A stretch of 64,000 nucleotides of DNA from Ophiocordyceps camponoti-saundersi (nom. inval.) (lineage: Eukaryota > Ascomycota > Sordariomycetes > Hypocreales > Ophiocordycipitaceae), in assembly GCA_003339415.1 (NCBI GenBank), contig PDHQ01000032.1:62001-126000 (forward strand). Reading direction: 5' to 3'. Shown one piece after another: positions 10,401-64,000 of this stretch; the stretch's first letter is position 1; each line of letters opens with the position of its first letter. The notes under the pieces were generated by a model. It was not told where the DNA came from. It worked only from the letters and a program-made list of their open reading frames with translations, and ran no database searches. Made by a program: the position numbers and the translations under genes.

Positions 10401-11052
10401 TAGTGGAAATGGCAATAGACGTTGCCGTCGTGCTCGTAATAGCTATCCTGAGCGCCGAAGACGGTGGAGCAGAGCGAGCAGGTGAAGTGGTCGACGTGGT
10501 ACTTGCGGTCCAGGGCGGTAATGTAGGAACCGCGGAGCGCACCACCGCACTGGTGGCAGAGCAGGCCGAGGCGTCGAAAGTAGTCGGTCTCGCACAAGGG
10601 ATACTGTCCCTTGCCGTTGTCCTCGTCGGCGGGGAAGAACTTGGAGGCAACGATCTGGCCGCAGTCCTGCGACAAAGGCGCGTTAGCAGGCGCAGGCAGA
10701 GGGGATAGAGGGGGCGAGGTCATACTCGGCACTTGAAGCAGTCGAGGTGAAAGGTGCCTTCCAGTGCGCGGACGAACTGGCCGGTCAAGGGCTCGCCACA
10801 TTTGGTGCAGATGCGCGACTGGCCGCTCGCATTTCGTCCGTTCCTCGGGCGCGATCGGTTCCGCTCGTCGCTCTGCCGGGGCGGCGTGTCGTCGGTGCGA
10901 GCCAGCAGAGCGCCCGAGGCTGGAGGTCTGAGGCTATCAGGGGTCTTGGTGCCGCCATTGGGCCGACCCCAGTCGCTCGTGTCGAAATCCATGACGCGAT
11001 CGTCGGCGCGCAGACGCTCGACGAAAGAGGCGTCGTCGCGATCCGGCGCCAT
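7414..11052 (-). CDS. LRG1: LIM-domain Rho GTPase-activating protein (Lrg1 type)
   Basis: Proposed exons on the minus strand: 11052..10726, 10666..9970, 9917..7933 and 7866..7414. All phases match and give about 1153 residues. LIM domain 1 begins near residue 82 (CTKCGEPLTGQF) and is interrupted by intron 1. LIM 2 is near 145-200 (CHQCGGALRGSY). LIM 3 is near 452-515 (CVLCSRSVEDEC). The RhoGAP domain lies at roughly 795-1000, with the arginine-finger motif EGIFRKNGN. Known: yeast Lrg1 has this LIM-LIM-LIM-RhoGAP order, acts on Rho1 and limits cell-wall glucan synthesis and polarised growth. Inferred: the same role here. The start at 11052 is the first ATG giving a compact protein; an upstream in-frame segment runs into poly-Pro coded by the poly-G tract and is probably leader. 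The last intron is placed so that EMCQ joins VPDELLN. Plus-strand frames of up to 322 codons across this gene are antisense shadows. Confidence 0.88.
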
Positions 11053-11989
11053 CGAAGTTCGGCAATCCAGCGAAGCACTGGAAAGCCCGGCGGTAGGTCT
11101 GATGATGACGAGGCACCGACGTTGGGAGAAGAGGGGGGGGGGGGGGGGGGAGGGGGCACGAAAAAGGACGCCACAAGGCGGAAAAAAAAGAACCCAGCAC
11201 GGCAAACGACGGGAGGCTGGCGAGGAAGAAGAAAGANNNNNNNNNNNNNNNNNNNNNNNNNNNNNNNNNNNNNNNNNNNNNNNNNNNNNNNNNNNNNNNN
11301 NNNNNNNNNNNNNNNNNNNNNNNNNNNNNNNNNNNNNNNNNNNNNNNNNNNNNNNNNNNNNNNNNNNNNNNNNNNNNNNNNNNNNNNNNNNNNNNNNNNN
11401 NNNNNNNNNNNNNNNNNNNNNNNNNNNNNNNNNNNNNNNNNNNNNNNNNNNNNNNNNNNNNNNNNNNNNNNNNNNNNNNNNNNNNNNNNNNNNNNNNNNN
11501 NNNNNNNNNNNNNNNNNNNNNNNNNNNNNNNNNNNNNNNNNNNNNNNNNNNNNNNNNNNNNNNNNNNNNNNNNNNNNNNNNNNNNNNNNNNNNNNNNNNN
11601 NNNNNNNNNNNNNNNNNNNNNNNNNNNNNNNNNNNNNNNNNNNNNNNNNNNNNNNNNNNNNNNNNNNNNNNNNNNNNNNNNNNNNNNNNNNNNNNNNNNN
11701 NNNNNNNNNNNNNNNNNNNNNNNNNNNNNNNNNNNNNNNNNNNNNNNNNNNNNNNNNNNNNNNNNNNNNNNNNNNNNNNNNNNNNNNNNNNNNNNNNNNN
11801 NNNNNNNNNNNNNNNNNNNNNNNNNNNNNNNNNNNNNNNNNNNNNNNNNNNNNNNNNNNNGTTCGTGGTGCGGTCGGGCGGTGGCCGCGGGCCGGGGGGG
11901 GGGGGGGGGGGGGGTGGGGGGGGGGGGGGGGGGGGGGGGGGGCAGAGGGGGCTGACCGTGACGCTGTAGCGGCTAACTAGAAGGTACAT
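11053..11989. other. Assembly gap (N) with flanking poly-G tracts
   Basis: Bases 11237-11860 are N. The left flank has an uninterrupted G run at about 11133-11150 and the right flank an almost pure G tract at about 11896-11942. The gap falls in the upstream region of the LIM-RhoGAP gene. Its true length and content are unknown; G homopolymers and possible G-quadruplexes are a likely cause of sequencing drop-out. Confidence 0.95.
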
Positions 11990-47858: not shown

Positions 47859-48183
47859 ATGCGCCCGCGCGTCTTCTTTCATCCTTCAACCGTCATCGAC
47901 GACTTGTCGCTAGAGTCGATAGGAGAGCCGCTTACCGAGTCCGATCACCACTTGCGATTGGCCATGATGCATCGGCGTCAGCAGGAGCAGCAGCAGGAGG
48001 CGCCGCAACCGCCGTCGCAGCAGCAACAGCAACAGCATCACCATCACCATCACCACCACCACCACCACCATCATCATCCGCATCATCAGCATCAGCATCA
48101 GCATCAACACCAAGAACACCAAGATCAACAACAGCACCTGCAGCAACAGACGCATCATCACCTTCACCAGCAACTTCCATCCC

Positions 48184-48218
<35 letters not shown>

Positions 48219-48779
48219 CCACCACCACCACAACAGCAACTCTTCTATCACAACCACCATCCTTATCACCACCAACACAACCTCGCTCCTCACCACCACT
48301 ACCAACAACCGCAACCGCAATCGCAACCACAAGATCAACATGTCCAAGCCCCGACGCCTCTCCAGCTCCTCGCCATCCGCAATCCGCCCCTCGCCCACAA
48401 GCTGCACCAGATGGCTCTCCTCCTCTCGCCCCTCGTCCAGCTCACCACCGGCGCCGTCCACCCGCACTTCCCGCGAACCGTCCTGCACTTCTGGCTTCTG
48501 ACCGACGCTCAGCTCGAGAGCCTCGCCTCCTTCTACCACCAGCGCACCCCGAGCCCCTGGTCCGCCCAGTACCCATGCCCCGTCGCCTGGCGTTCCGACC
48601 TGCCCCTCGAGGAGAAGCGCCGTCGCATGGGCAAGTTCATCGGCCTGCGCGGTTGCGATACCTCGCCCGACGTCGCTGCCGTCGCCCGCGCCCTGCGCTC
48701 CGAGGACGACATCGCCGAGGAGGCCCGCCTGGCCGCTGCCGACGATGAGATGTGGCGCAGGAAACTGAATCCCTGGTGA
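47859..48779 (+). CDS. His/Gln/Pro-rich protein with a conserved-looking C-terminal domain
   Basis: A single exon of 306 residues from the ATG at 47859; the open frame extends upstream through a CT-rich leader. Residues 1-40 (MRPRVFFHPSTVIDDLSLES) look ordered. Residues 45-165 are homopolymeric: Gln tracts, a run of 14 His, alternating His/Gln, Pro and Ser tracts coded by CAC/CAT/CAG/CAA. Residues 175-306 form a folded domain with TGAVHPHFPRTVLHFWLLTD, SLASFYHQRTPS and GKFIGLRGCDTSP, followed by a helical tail ending RRKLNPW. I recall this C-terminal domain from fungal proteins without known function. The low-complexity middle could bind metals or drive condensation, which is inference. Antisense frames here are shadows of the CAN repeats. 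Confidence 0.68.
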
Positions 48780-59477: not shown

Positions 59478-61005
59478 ACTGCTGGAACTGCGATGCTCGC
59501 CTCGCTTTACCCTTGTCGTCCCCCTCCGTCCCCCTTCCGTCCTCTACACCTAGAAGGGACAAAACATGGATGAGCCGGCGTCGGCGTTTAACAACCTCTG
59601 CTTCCTCTAATGTTGTTGTCTTCCCCATATTTCTCTTTTCCAGCCGCATATTGTCAAGCCTTGATCTGCACTTTCTTCGCTTTCTTTCCTTTACCTTCCT
59701 TCGCCTGCCATCTGCCATCCATGTTGAATACCGAGCATGCTGTTCGCTACCAAAGTGTTTTTTCTTCCCCTCCCCGGTGGGCAAAAAGGGACCCTAAAAG
59801 TTTTCTTGCTGTGCGTGTGGTGCAAATGCGCGAGTGGAAGACAAGAAGAGCCTCGAAAGAGCTACGGCTTGCTTCTCTTCTGTCGGGCTTTGTATGTTTT
59901 TCTTCTTTATTCTCTCTTCTTTCTTTGACATAGATGGTCTGCGGGCTCAATCTAGTGGAGTTGCACAGCTTCGGGACGCGCTTATCCGAGATGAAATCAT
60001 TGAGCCGTGAGTTTTGCATATCCTCAGCGTTGGTTTGTTGACGGAGATGAGGGATGGTAAGGTGAACGAAGCTTGCCAGGTAAGTTCGTCGATTATGTTG
60101 ATCATGTTGGGCCATTGCCCGAATCTCCAGAGATAAGGACCGGAAGATGATTGACGGTGGCTTCGGCATTTAAGTGGCATTGGCTGGTGAACAGAAGGTG
60201 AGAAATGAGAGGAAACAACAAGCCTCTGTTTACGAGGCAGGCAGGCCGGTTGGTTCGTGGTGGTGGTGTTATCTTGAGTTTGAGGCTCACGAAGAAAACT
60301 CATCACCATTGCAGCAGGAGGAGGAGAAGGAGGAGGAGGAAGACAACGATGAATGCCTGCTCTACCGATCGTGGCCAACGACCTCGTGCCGACGCCACGA
60401 TACCCTTCAGCGAGAGCGCTGTTGGGCAGCCCATTCCGCCCTCAGGCGGGCCGCACCGCCCCAACTTGGTTCTTATCAATGCTCCCTCGCCTGGATTATG
60501 GCCATGCGCCACGCCAGCCTTCACGATCTGTTTTTTTCTGATTACTGTCAAGTTGGAATCTCCTGCTGTCAGAACTCTCCGGTCGTCCAGGGCCTGGATG
60601 GGACGAATTCCTGAACGCGCGCTCTCGAGGTTCCTGAGGGGATTCAGGCTGGTTGTTGATGGCGTTTTTACCTTCTACGTGCCGGCTGGGCGACGTTGGC
60701 TTGAGTCGGAACTATTGGAGCTCCCGGAATGCGTGAGCTCGGGGGAAGCAACAGGTGAGAAGAGCGTCGAGCATGCTGTGCCGGTCGAGGGACCAGACGC
60801 CTTTCAGACGCGTATAAGATGTCATGCCAGATCCCGCAGTTCGGTTTGTTTTTCTTTCCCCCTTTTCCCTTCTCTCATCAGCAGCAGTTCTCGACTCTGT
60901 GCTTCCACTCAGGTTCAGCAGCACACTGAAGAGACAGAAGCTAGCAGCCTTTCTTTCCCCCCTTTGCCCTACACCCCTCTTCCGACTCTTGAACAGCAAG
61001 CAAGG
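59478..61005. promoter_or_regulatory. Intergenic region and promoter of the repeat-precursor gene
   Basis: The 3' flank of CPA2 and the upstream region of the gene at 61006. It contains GGAGGAGGAGAAGG-type purine repeats at 60318-60345 and a CT-rich leader from 60850 to 61000. Minus-strand frames here extend into the repeat gene and are shadows. Confidence 0.45.
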
Positions 61006-64000
61006 ATGAAGACTCCTGTCGTGAGTTCGCTCCTGGCCCTCAGCCTGGCGGGCAGCGGCCTCGCTGCGCCTGCCAACGGTGGCGGTACCGTGGAGCCGAC
61101 CCGTCGGGATGTGACGTCCTCTCAGCCTCTCGAGAGGCGCGACAATGAGGCTTCGGACGCTACTCTCGCGGAGAACGGAGGCGAGCGCATGGATGGTGGC
61201 AAGCACGAGAAGCGTCAGCCTGAGAAGGAGGGCAGCAACTACTGGCACGACCCTTACTACGAGGACGGCCATTACGGCTATGGCTATGGCTATGCGAAGA
61301 AGCCGGCTGCCAAGAGAGGACTCGCCGACCAGGCTAAGCAGGGTGCTCTCGACAAGCGCCAGCCCGAGAAGGAAGGCGAGAACTACTGGCACGACCCCTA
61401 CTATGAGGACGGACACTACGGTTACGGTTACGGTTACGCCAAGAAGCCGGAGAGCAAGAGGAGCGTCGTCGACGGAAAGGAGGCCCTCGACAAGCGCCAG
61501 CCTGAGAAGGAAGGCGAGAGCTACTGGCACGACCCCTATTACGAGGACGGCCATTACGGTTACGGTTACGGTTACGCCAAGAAGCCGGAGAGCAAGAGGA
61601 GCGTCGTCGACGGAAAGGAGGCCCTTGAAAAGCGCCAGCCTGAGAAAGAAGGCGAGAGCTACTGGCACGACCCCTACTACGAGGACGGCCATTACGGTTA
61701 CGGTTACGGTTACGCCAAGAAGCCGGAGAGCAAGAGGAGCGTCGTCGACGGAAAGGAGGCCCTTGAAAAGCGCCAGCCTGAGAAGGAAGGGGAGAAGTAC
61801 TGGCACGATCCCTACTACGGTGGAGGTTACTACGGCTATGGTTACGATTACGCCAAGAAGCCGGCGAGCAAGAGGAGCATCGACAAGCGCGAGCCGGCTG
61901 AGGAAGAAGGGGATGCCGGTGACTGGTACAATAACCCCTATTACTCGGAGGGCTACTACGAAGGCGGCTATGAAGGCTATGGCCATGGCTATGGCTACGC
62001 CAAGAAGCCGGAGGGCAAGCGGAGCCTGGATAAGCGCGAGCCGGGCGAGGAAGACGGCGATGCCGGTGACTGGCACCACAATCCCTATTACTCGGACGGC
62101 TACTACGGAAATAGCCACGACGGCTATGGCTATGGCTATGGCTATGCCAAGAAGCCGGAGGGCAAGCGAAGCCTCGACAAGCGCGAGCCGGCTGAGGCAG
62201 ACGGCAATGCCGGCGACTGGTACTATAATCCCTACTACTCGGGCGGCTATTACCATGACGGCTATGGTTATGGCTACGCCAAGAAGGAGGAGGGTAAGCG
62301 AAGCCTCAACAAGCGCGAGCCGACCAAGGACGGCGGCGATACCGGTGAATGGCACCACAACCCCTATTACTCGGACGGCTACTACCACAACGGCTATGGC
62401 TACGACTACGGCTACGGCTACGCCAAGAAGAAGGCGAGCAAGCGAGACGAGCAGAGCGGCCTTGAGAAACGTGCACAGAGCGCCGGTGCGTGGCGCGGTG
62501 GTTGGGGAGGCCGTGGAGGCTGGGGAGGTTACGACGGCTGGAACGATTACGGCGGCTACGGCGGCTGGGACGACGAGGACGGCCTCGTCTCCGGCCTACT
62601 TCTCGGCCTCCTTGGCAAGCGCGGCGAGCAGGCGGCCGAAGGCGCCGGCTTGGATAAACGGGCGCCGCTGGACAGCGTCGACGGCGACTTGCGCAAGCGT
62701 GGCGAGCAGGCCGAGAACATTCTGGATGATATTGGACTGCTCACGGGCCTCCGTAAGCGCGGAGAGCAGGCTGAAGGCCTTTTGCACGGCGATCACCACG
62801 TCGGAGTTTCTCACCACGGCGAAACGGTTCACCACGGCAGTGTTCACCATGAGGGCGTCGTCAACAACCTTGTGGACGACTTGCTTGGCAAGCGTGACGA
62901 GCAGGCTGCAGGTCTCTTGCACGGCGATCACCACGTTACTGTTGCTCACCACGGCGATACTGTTCACCACGGCGATACCGTTCACCACGGCGGCAGCGTT
63001 CATCACGAGGGCGTCGTCAACAACCTGGTGGACAATCTGCTTGGCAAGCGTGACGAGCAGGCTGGAGCTCTTTTGCACGGCGATCACCACGTCAGTGTTG
63101 CTCACCACGGCGATACTGTTCACCACGGCGGCAGTGTTCATCACGAGGGCGTCGTGAACAACCTCGTTGACAATCTGCTTGGCAAGCGTGACGAGCAGGC
63201 TGGAGCTCTTCTGCACGGCGCTCAACACCTTGGTCTTGCTCACCACGGCGGTTACGCTCACCACGGCAGCAGTGCTCATCACGAGGGCGTCGTCAACAAC
63301 CTGGTGGATAACCTGCTTGGCAAGCGTAGCGAGCAGGCCGGAGCTCTTCTGCACGGCGCTCACGGCGCTCATCACGGTGGTGTCCATCACGAGGGCGTCG
63401 TCAACAACCTGGTTGATGACCTGCTTGGCAAGCGTAGCGAGCAGGCCGGAGCTCTGCTGCACGGCGCCCACGGCGTCCAACACCATGGTGGCCATCATGA
63501 AGGTGTCGTTAACAACCTAGTGGACGATTTGCTGGGCAAGCGCGGCATCGAAGGCGAGGACAAGAAGGAAGACGCACTGAGTGGGCTTGCTAGCCTGCTC
63601 AGCAGCTTCTTCAACACTCCCAGTGCCGGCACCGCCCCCGCCGCGGCCGGCAGCGTCGCCAAGCGAGAGGTTTCGCAGATGCACGAGGACGCCAAGAGCC
63701 AGTTGATGGAGATGGCTGAAGGCATCACGAAGCTGATGGAGAAGAGGGCTTCGCAGAATCCCTCGACCAAGCTGGGGTCGGAGATTGGAAGCCAGCTCGG
63801 GACCGCCGTCAACTCCTTCATCGACACCATCGGACGCTTCATCGGCACCGACAGCAAGACGCTGGCCAGCAGCCAAATCGGAGGGGCGCTCAGGACGATG
63901 CTCGAGCCCGTGCCCGAGGTGGCCAACAAGGCCACCTCTCTGTGGGGAGCCGGCGAGGAGGCCGAGGGTGTTTCCGGTAAAGAGACGGTCGTCCCAAACT
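61006..64000 (+). CDS. Secreted Kex2-type repeat precursor with Tyr/Gly-rich and His-rich peptides (3' end outside window)
   Basis: From the ATG at 61006 a single frame stays open to base 64000, at least 998 residues with no stop. Residues 1-20 are a signal peptide (MKTPVVSSLLALSLAGSGLA). After a pro-region come nine Tyr/Gly-rich units at residues 71-480, each ending in Lys-Arg and most with a second internal Lys-Arg. A Gly/Trp/Asp-rich segment occupies 490-539. Short GEQA-type peptides follow, then six His-rich units at 586-846, each ending VVNNLVD(D/N)LLGKR. The region after 846 is not repeated; it carries further Lys-Arg sites (near 886 and 915) and amphipathic segments. Known: repeats bounded by KR after a signal peptide define fungal KEP precursors cut by Kex2 in the Golgi; some are RiPP precursors (ustiloxin type), others repellents or mating peptides. 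Inferred: about 25 or more secreted peptides from one chain. No tailoring enzyme gene is seen within the window. The function is unknown, and competing frames over the same DNA are shadows. Confidence 0.88.
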   Translation, partial: MKTPVVSSLLALSLAGSGLAAPANGGGTVEPTRRDVTSSQPLERRDNEASDATLAENGGERMDGGKHEKRQPEKEGSNYWHDPYYEDGHYGYGYGYAKKPAAKRGLADQAKQGALDKRQPEKEGENYWHDPYYEDGHYGYGYGYAKKPESKRSVVDGKEALDKRQPEKEGESYWHDPYYEDGHYGYGYGYAKKPESKRSVVDGKEALEKRQPEKEGESYWHDPYYEDGHYGYGYGYAKKPESKRSVVDGKEALEKRQPEKEGEKYWHDPYYGGGYYGYGYDYAKKPASKRSIDKREPAEEEGDAGDWYNNPYYSEGYYEGGYEGYGHGYGYAKKPEGKRSLDKREPGEEDGDAGDWHHNPYYSDGYYGNSHDGYGYGYGYAKKPEGKRSLDKREPAEADGNAGDWYYNPYYSGGYYHDGYGYGYAKKEEGKRSLNKREPTKDGGDTGEWHHNPYYSDGYYHNGYGYDYGYGYAKKKASKRDEQSGLEKRAQSAGAWRGGWGGRGGWGGYDGWNDYGGYGGWDDEDGLVSGLLLGLLGKRGEQAAEGAGLDKRAPLDSVDGDLRKRGEQAENILDDIGLLTGLRKRGEQAEGLLHGDHHVGVSHHGETVHHGSVHHEGVVNNLVDDLLGKRDEQAAGLLHGDHHVTVAHHGDTVHHGDTVHHGGSVHHEGVVNNLVDNLLGKRDEQAGALLHGDHHVSVAHHGDTVHHGGSVHHEGVVNNLVDNLLGKRDEQAGALLHGAQHLGLAHHGGYAHHGSSAHHEGVVNNLVDNLLGKRSEQAGALLHGAHGAHHGGVHHEGVVNNLVDDLLGKRSEQAGALLHGAHGVQHHGGHHEGVVNNLVDDLLGKRGIEGEDKKEDALSGLASLLSSFFNTPSAGTAPAAAGSVAKREVSQMHEDAKSQLMEMAEGITKLMEKRASQNPSTKLGSEIGSQLGTAVNSFIDTIGRFIGTDSKTLASSQIGGALRTMLEPVPEVANKATSLWGAGEEAEGVSGKETVVPN
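61216..62445 (+). repeat. Nine Tyr/Gly-rich Lys-Arg-bounded coding repeats
   Basis: Units at residues 71-118, 119-164, 165-210, 211-256, 257-295, 296-344, 345-393, 394-437 and 438-480 of the precursor. The first five begin QPEKEG and carry YWHDPYY; the last four begin EP and carry (D/E)W..NPYYS. All share a GYGYAKK-type core followed by KR. Units 2-4 are nearly identical in DNA; the others have diverged. Confidence 0.92.
62761..63543 (+). repeat. Six His-rich Lys-Arg-bounded coding repeats
   Basis: Units at residues 586-630, 631-682, 683-728, 729-774, 775-810 and 811-846. Each starts (G/D/S)EQA(E/G/A), contains a variable HHG-rich core, and ends with HHEGVVNNLVD(D/N)LLGKR. Length differences come from gain or loss of HHGDTV/HHGGSV sub-units. 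Confidence 0.92.

Follow-up and report, generated by a model that had tools for sequence, protein, structure and literature searches.

A complete gene for a predicted Kex2-processed repeat precursor with an unusual mix of units in Ophiocordyceps camponoti-saundersi

We examined the downstream end of a 64,000-nucleotide stretch of Ophiocordyceps camponoti-saundersi DNA (contig PDHQ01000032.1, positions 62,001 to 126,000; hereafter the window), where a long open reading frame (ORF) encodes a putative secreted repeat protein of the Kex2-processed (KEP) type (Table 1). The first-pass annotation, made from the letters of the window, had described at least 998 residues without a stop, in a frame still open where the window ends. 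Followed past that edge along the contig (C255, 226,114 bases), the frame meets a TGA (L002:4000-4002) that closes it at exactly 998 residues; it had seemed open because the window holds just the first base of this codon. Truncation of the gene by the window edge was rejected on the same evidence.

The product begins with a hydrophobic segment and a pro-region. Five A units and then four B units follow; five single peptides separate these from six H units, and two further single peptides lead to an 84-residue end. The 15 long units, with short spacers and singles, are nearly all KR-bounded and match the earlier count of at least 15 repeat units plus single peptides. Hydropathy reaches its maximum (1.80) at residues 5–19 and is at most 1.11 after residue 30. 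The spacers of the A units are GLADQAKQGALDKR (once) and SVVDGKEAL[DE]KR (three times), and a five-residue spacer, S[IL][DN]KR, stands ahead of every B unit. Identity among the A copies at the DNA level is 75.5–98.0%; units 3 and 4 share 98.0%, and part of the array therefore looks young. H units follow the pattern xEQAxxLLHG, 2–5 HH pairs, HHEGVVNNLVD[DN]LLGKR, and contain a smaller nested repeat with an 18-base period. Tyr is present in all nine A and B units and in one of the six H units, Cys in none of the 998 residues. The 18 fragments longer than 25 residues are mostly Tyr- or His-rich and carry net charges of −1 to −8. When seven stretches were tested for amphipathic helices, three from the C-terminal part beat nearly all shuffles, and two H-unit tails and two further stretches did not rise above them. 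A single-sequence AlphaFold model of residues 847–998 had a mean pLDDT of 48, too low for use.

Table 1. Features of the precursor locus (positions in the window; lengths in residues)
Feature	Positions	Strand	Basis
KEP-type ORF, complete, 998 residues	61006..64000	+	stop TGA at 64000-64002, two bases past the window
Signal-peptide-like N-terminus, residues 1-20	61006..61065	+	hydropathy; cleavage point assumed
Pro-region, residues 21-70, two RR and one KR site	61066..61215	+	unit table
Five A units, QPEKEGxxYWHDPYY...AKKPxxKR, 34 each, with spacers	61216..61875	+	unit table; DNA repeats
Four B units, EP...NPYY...GYGYAKK..., 39-44	61876..62445	+	unit table; DNA repeats
Single peptide DEQSGLEKR	62446..62472	+	unit table
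Single Trp/Gly-rich peptide, 50	62473..62622	+	unit table
Three short single peptides, 13, 13 and 20	62623..62760	+	unit table
Six H units, 36-52	62761..63543	+	unit table; DNA repeats
Single peptide GIEGEDKKEDALSGLASLLSSFFNTP...VAKR, 41, with amphipathic stretch	63544..63666	+	unit table
Single peptide EVSQMHEDAKSQLMEMAEGITKLMEKR, 27, amphipathic	63667..63747	+	unit table
Non-repetitive C-terminal fragment, 84	63748..63999	+	unit table
Shadow antisense open frame, 558, judged non-coding	60712..62388	-	ORF list, pN/pS
Shadow +2 open frame, 670, judged non-coding	61145..63157	+	ORF list, pN/pS
Shadow antisense open frame, 300, judged non-coding	62596..63498	-	ORF list, pN/pS

The G+C content of the 998-residue frame by codon position (0.68/0.42/0.74) agrees with that of two certain nearby genes, CPSase (0.61/0.39/0.77) and BRR2 (0.60/0.36/0.72). 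Between repeat copies, the ratio of nonsynonymous to synonymous differences (pN/pS) in this frame is 0.14 for A (five units), 0.06 for A with its spacer (three), 0.48 for the first 21 residues of B (four units), 0.36 for the head of H and 0.03 for its tail (six units each). In all five repeat groups this is the lowest value among the six frames, the ratio being undefined in some of the others (pS = 0). Since the copy differences are mostly silent in the 998-residue frame, translation very likely uses this frame rather than one of the shadow frames. Such frames had been anticipated over the same DNA; three were found, and the antisense and +2 frames are most plausibly explained as a side effect of the repeats. 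The six-frame comparison led us to reject the idea that the repeats belong to a non-coding frame. We also rejected an intron excising the repeats: in our own signal scan the ORF scored zero complete intron signals (CPSase 0, BRR2 4).

Past residue 20 we counted 31 Lys-Arg (KR) dipeptides, compared with a mean of 3.0 (standard deviation 1.6, maximum 9) in 5000 shuffles of the same residues, and 33 of the 42 Arg residues stand in second place of a KR or RR pair. The figure of 31 overstates the case because repeat copies share their KR and are not independent; with every family counted once, a hand count from the unit table gives 14 sites. According to the survey of Le Marquer 2019, KEPs are defined by a signal peptide with no other membrane segment, at least four fragments, a motif in at least three of them and a repeat content of at least 15% (PMC6339444). 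Cutting our protein at KR and RR yields 34 fragments, the C-terminal one included. These form clusters of 6, 3, 4, 3 and 6 members under our own clustering, which differs from the FIMO pipeline of that survey and placed one B unit in the A cluster. Clusters of at least three fragments take in 657 of the 978 residues after residue 20, a figure that counts whole cluster members and not the minimal motif used by Le Marquer. Umemura 2020 gives as criterion at least three tandem repeats between Kex2 sites, each of 8 residues or more and none above 100 (PMC7329392); the long units, at 34–52 residues, agree with it by inspection, without use of the Umemura code.

For background, we screened 1570 open segments, each 80 codons or longer and overlaps included, from the stretches of the genome examined, for at least three similar KR/RR-bounded fragments of 8–100 residues. 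The screen returned 12 rows. Eight of them come from the precursor locus, read in its own frame and in the +2 frame, across four sources that overlap; the remaining four fall on three loci in the neighbourhood of UstYa matches, one locus being picked up from two overlapping sources. The precursor appears to fit the published computational description of KEPs, its secretion signal being judged from hydropathy. The original call of a secreted KEP precursor is supported by the KR-bounded repeats and by the number and repetition of the fragments, with a start that resembles a signal peptide.

We consider it probable that the product of the gene is a secreted KEP from which Kex2 and Kex1 would release linear peptides, possibly as surface or matrix peptides. 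The signal peptide would bring the precursor into the endoplasmic reticulum, Kex2 would cleave after KR in the Golgi, and a Kex1-type carboxypeptidase would presumably remove KR from the C-termini. The expected products are nine Tyr/Gly-rich peptides (32–42 residues), six His-rich peptides (34–50 residues) and several singles. For two predicted peptides trimmed of KR, QPEKEGESYWHDPYYEDGHYGYGYGYAKKPES and DEQAGALLHGDHHVSVAHHGDTVHHGGSVHHEGVVNNLVDNLLG, the computed MH+ values are 3829.64 (17.03 less with Gln cyclised) and 4587.20, respectively. All nine Tyr units carry [QE]P directly after KR; a Ste13-type peptidase may take off this QP or EP; alternatively, cyclisation of the Gln is possible. 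The P_proprotein domain, a mark of kexin-type convertases, has one match above the cut-off in the genome (C443). DPPIV_N likewise has a single match (C720), which may or may not be of the Ste13 type. The released peptides are expected, most likely, to remain linear. KEPs that yield linear peptides are described in PMC9769878, where Pichia pastoris served with its native Kex2 and Kex1 for other KEPs.

By analogy, the chemistry of the two kinds of peptide points to self-association outside the cell for Tyr/Gly and to the binding of metal for HH. In the least supported step of the scheme, which would take place on the surface of the hyphae or in the surrounding matrix, the Tyr/Gly-rich peptides may self-associate or cross-link and the HH-rich peptides may bind metal. 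The peptides may also have a repellent-like surface role, and any role assigned to them is a guess. There is also a slim chance that one gene of an ant-parasitic Ophiocordyceps lineage supplies two unlike peptide sets, Tyr/Gly-rich and HH-rich, in fixed ratio and that these act jointly outside the cell, as a metal-hardened, Tyr-crosslinked hyphal coating or as peptides acting on the ant.

Several observations weigh against this account of secretion, cleavage and function. The frame test is marginal for B, where one antisense frame scores 0.49 against 0.48; for the H head the same antisense frame scores 0.47 (0.36 in the precursor frame). The signal peptide was called from hydropathy alone. KK sites within the units (AKKP) make the true peptide ends uncertain, and the P_proprotein match reads through two TGA codons, so that an intron or a break must lie within it. 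A fraction of 0.16–0.18 of the shuffles equals or exceeds the helical moment found for the H-unit tails. The surface and metal-binding role is argued from chemistry by analogy. Lastly, a search with the whole precursor (E up to 0.001; the 7992 candidates sharing most words) found no homologue among proteins of about 549–1746 residues, the range admitted to our homologue searches, in which shorter orthologues could not appear.

Within the same length range, residues 835–998 gave no homologue either (E up to 10; all 1965 candidates scored). No match to the precursor was found in Pfam or the PDB (each E up to 1), and its own genome returned the self match alone (E up to 1). A control search with the neighbouring NPL4 confirmed that fungal and Ophiocordyceps proteins are present in the database. 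Six unit pieces of 6–9 residues do not occur in the open-access PMC literature, which leaves room for a listing in the supplements of the KEP surveys. Within these scopes we found, as had been claimed, no described precursor with these repeats. An orphan KEP is ordinary, because 2560 of the 7878 KEPs in the larger survey are given as lacking a homologue (PMC7329392).

Cleavage itself might be questioned. There is a small chance that the precursor stays uncut and acts whole, as a repetitive secreted protein of the surface or matrix, its KR pairs being incidental or partly used. Its composition, rich in Gly/Tyr and in His, is typical of structural and matrix proteins. SP7, a secreted repeat protein with Kex2 sites, is moreover described as active in its native form (PMC5293756). 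However, the KR and RR pairs that hold most of the Arg stand at unit borders, those of single-copy peptides included, and a kexin-type domain is found in the same genome; both argue for release of peptides.

The first-pass annotation had also raised the ustiloxin/asperipin class of cyclic peptides and pointed to DUF3328 (UstYa-like), tyrosinase or methyltransferase genes within about 20 kb. We compared 19 ORFs or exons, from about 24 kb upstream to 26 kb downstream and leaving aside the KEP itself and one antisense frame, with Pfam, a survey that may miss small or intron-rich genes; the 12 with a family include no UstYa, tyrosinase, P450, methyltransferase or transporter. Genome-wide, UstYa (PF11807) has 11 matches and tyrosinase six, none of either on the 226-kb contig. 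Because Pfam may miss divergent UstYa proteins, we added a scan for a double HxxHC motif, which we take to be of UstYa type. The scan misses motifs divided by an intron; it found none in 154 kb of the contig (the window and nine stretches; 150 kb without overlap) and five in 122.5 kb around the UstYa matches, one of which (L026, 6189) may be chance.

In the same scan, a 242-residue frame (L029:8047-8775, minus strand) with two HxxHC motifs (8238) and no match to the Pfam UstYa model was seen to adjoin a repeat precursor on contig C659; it is probably a divergent UstYa-like protein. As the motif was found in a frame unrecognised by Pfam, the scan can reach beyond that model.

The UstYa loci show what linked precursors look like in this genome. 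The one on C659 (about 61,922–62,635; L029:5923-6636, minus strand) has a UstYa match at a distance of about 3 kb, encodes 237 residues from its ATG with 13 similar fragments such as DNADEAWKFHTAEKR, and belongs to no Pfam family; this is likely a cyclic-peptide locus. A second candidate, on C22 (about 195,065–195,865; L023:1066-1866, plus strand), has units of the SSNVTLHRR type and is some 1 kb away from a UstYa match. A third frame, on C15 (L020:3583-6147, plus strand; 854 residues, no Pfam family), lies about 4 kb from UstYa matches; secreted-looking, with RRKEKLEADK repeats and Cys-rich segments, it resembles a Cys-rich secreted protein and is a doubtful short-repeat precursor. The fragment test revealed no precursor at the other UstYa loci examined (C280, C104, C201, and C659 near 386 kb). 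UstYa-linked precursors visible in the genome thus have short units near a UstYa gene, unlike the 998-residue precursor.

A cyclic dikaritin-type ribosomally synthesised and modified peptide, with Tyr-rich cores (YGYGYGYA before KK) cross-linked by a UstYa oxidase encoded elsewhere, is accordingly unlikely as the product of this gene. The units are Tyr-rich, KK directly follows GYGYGYA, and UstYa matches exist on six other contigs; Tyr, according to the Umemura survey, occurs in 65.6% of UstYa-linked KEP repeats and 38.2% of unlinked ones (PMC7329392). Set against this are the lack of a UstYa or tyrosinase match on the contig and of a double motif in the 154 kb of it scanned, the mostly housekeeping nature of the recognised neighbours, the two UstYa loci with short-repeat precursors of their own, the lack of Tyr in five of the six H units, and unit length. 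Typical units have 13 residues in ustiloxin, 14 in phomopsin and 8 in asperipin (PMC7329392), and those of our precursor are at least twice as long; even cutting the A and B units at KK leaves about 26–37 residues, outside the short dikaritin range of 8–14. The proposed class is therefore not supported.

A signalling, pheromone-like precursor is very improbable: the repeat design is that of alpha-pheromones, and XP after KR in all nine Tyr units, together with the DPPIV-type domain, recalls Ste13 trimming, but this dipeptide is single in each unit (with one AP elsewhere among the 31 KR sites) and never forms runs, the predicted peptides have 32–50 residues as against 9–24 for alpha-pheromones, and the total lack of Cys, two of which are described as conserved in Sordariomycete alpha-pheromones (PMC6339444), excludes the Cys-type pheromone that the earlier mention of pheromone-like peptides would cover.

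The recognised neighbours of the gene are mostly housekeeping genes. Of the 19 neighbouring ORFs or exons, 12 have a Pfam family and seven do not. Those recognised upstream include an ORC winged-helix protein, Sec66, NPL4 and the CPSase large chain; downstream are an Mpo1-like lipid dioxygenase, an Rpb7 N-terminal domain, a CS-domain protein, DUF3602, the actin-capping protein beta subunit and a GDSL lipase. For BRR2 the nearest solved structures are 5m59 and 6qv3, presumably from Chaetomium. Elsewhere in the window, positions 10811-11989 contain a long N stretch beside frames with Pro or Gly runs, and positions 47859-48779 hold a frame of 306 residues that contains long runs of His, Gln and Pro and matches no Pfam family.

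Over 91% of the query in both cases, NPL4, with a single match in the genome, is 93% identical to its counterpart in O. camponoti-leonardi, an ant parasite, and 85% identical to that of O. camponoti-floridani. This one protein puts the genome close to these species. O. camponoti-floridani is also described as an ant parasite (PMC7341126, PMC10449854). The assembly spans 45.7 Mb; reported sizes are 30.5 Mb for O. camponoti-floridani (PMC7341126) and 21.91–23.92 Mb for the O. unilateralis and O. australis groups (PMC5624889). Searches for host-manipulation genes in ant-infecting Ophiocordyceps, as described in these genome papers, set small secreted proteins at fewer than 300 residues (PMC7341126, PMC5624889). 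A 998-residue precursor of 32–50-residue peptides falls outside that definition despite its small products, and may figure in wider secretome lists. If the peptides are real, such precursors would be an easily overlooked source of secreted peptides in these fungi.

Several known systems share parts of this design. In the repellent type, the peptides form amyloid-like fibrils with surface activity; its example, Ustilago maydis Rep1, is a Kex2-processed precursor of 11 secreted peptides (cited in PMC5293756), and by analogy a surface role is proposed for our precursor. Candida albicans Ece1 yields several non-identical peptides from one precursor (PMC6339444), as is proposed here; the likeness is one of design, and unlike Ece1 the fragments of our precursor longer than 25 residues are negatively charged and mostly Tyr- or His-rich, with no cytolytic activity implied. 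Dikaritin precursors (ustiloxin, phomopsin, asperipin-2a) share the repeat design, the Kex2 sites and the Tyr of the A and B units. Our precursor differs from them in having long units, mostly Tyr-free H units and no linked UstYa or tyrosinase gene. KEP types G-3 and G-8 of Umemura, compared by description alone, have HH motifs in their repeats like the H units; most members of these types are linked to UstYa (57 of 64 for G-3 and 45 of 49 for G-8; PMC7329392), whereas our gene lacks such linkage.

With KEPs in general, as characterised by Le Marquer 2019 (PMC6339444) and Umemura 2020 (PMC7329392), the precursor shares a hydrophobic N-terminus, KR-bounded repeats, more than 15% of its length in repeats and the absence of a sequence relative among those searched. 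In the Le Marquer survey, three motif types are reported for two of 1193 KEPs and two types for 77 (PMC6339444). By our own reading, the precursor has at least three long repeat classes (A, B and H, plus spacers), which would exceed nearly all KEPs of that survey as reported; the clustering methods differ, and, A and B being related in sequence, the Le Marquer pipeline might count two. Overall, the sequence makes a well-supported case for a real and complete KEP gene, with a design known in fungi and an unusual mix of units.

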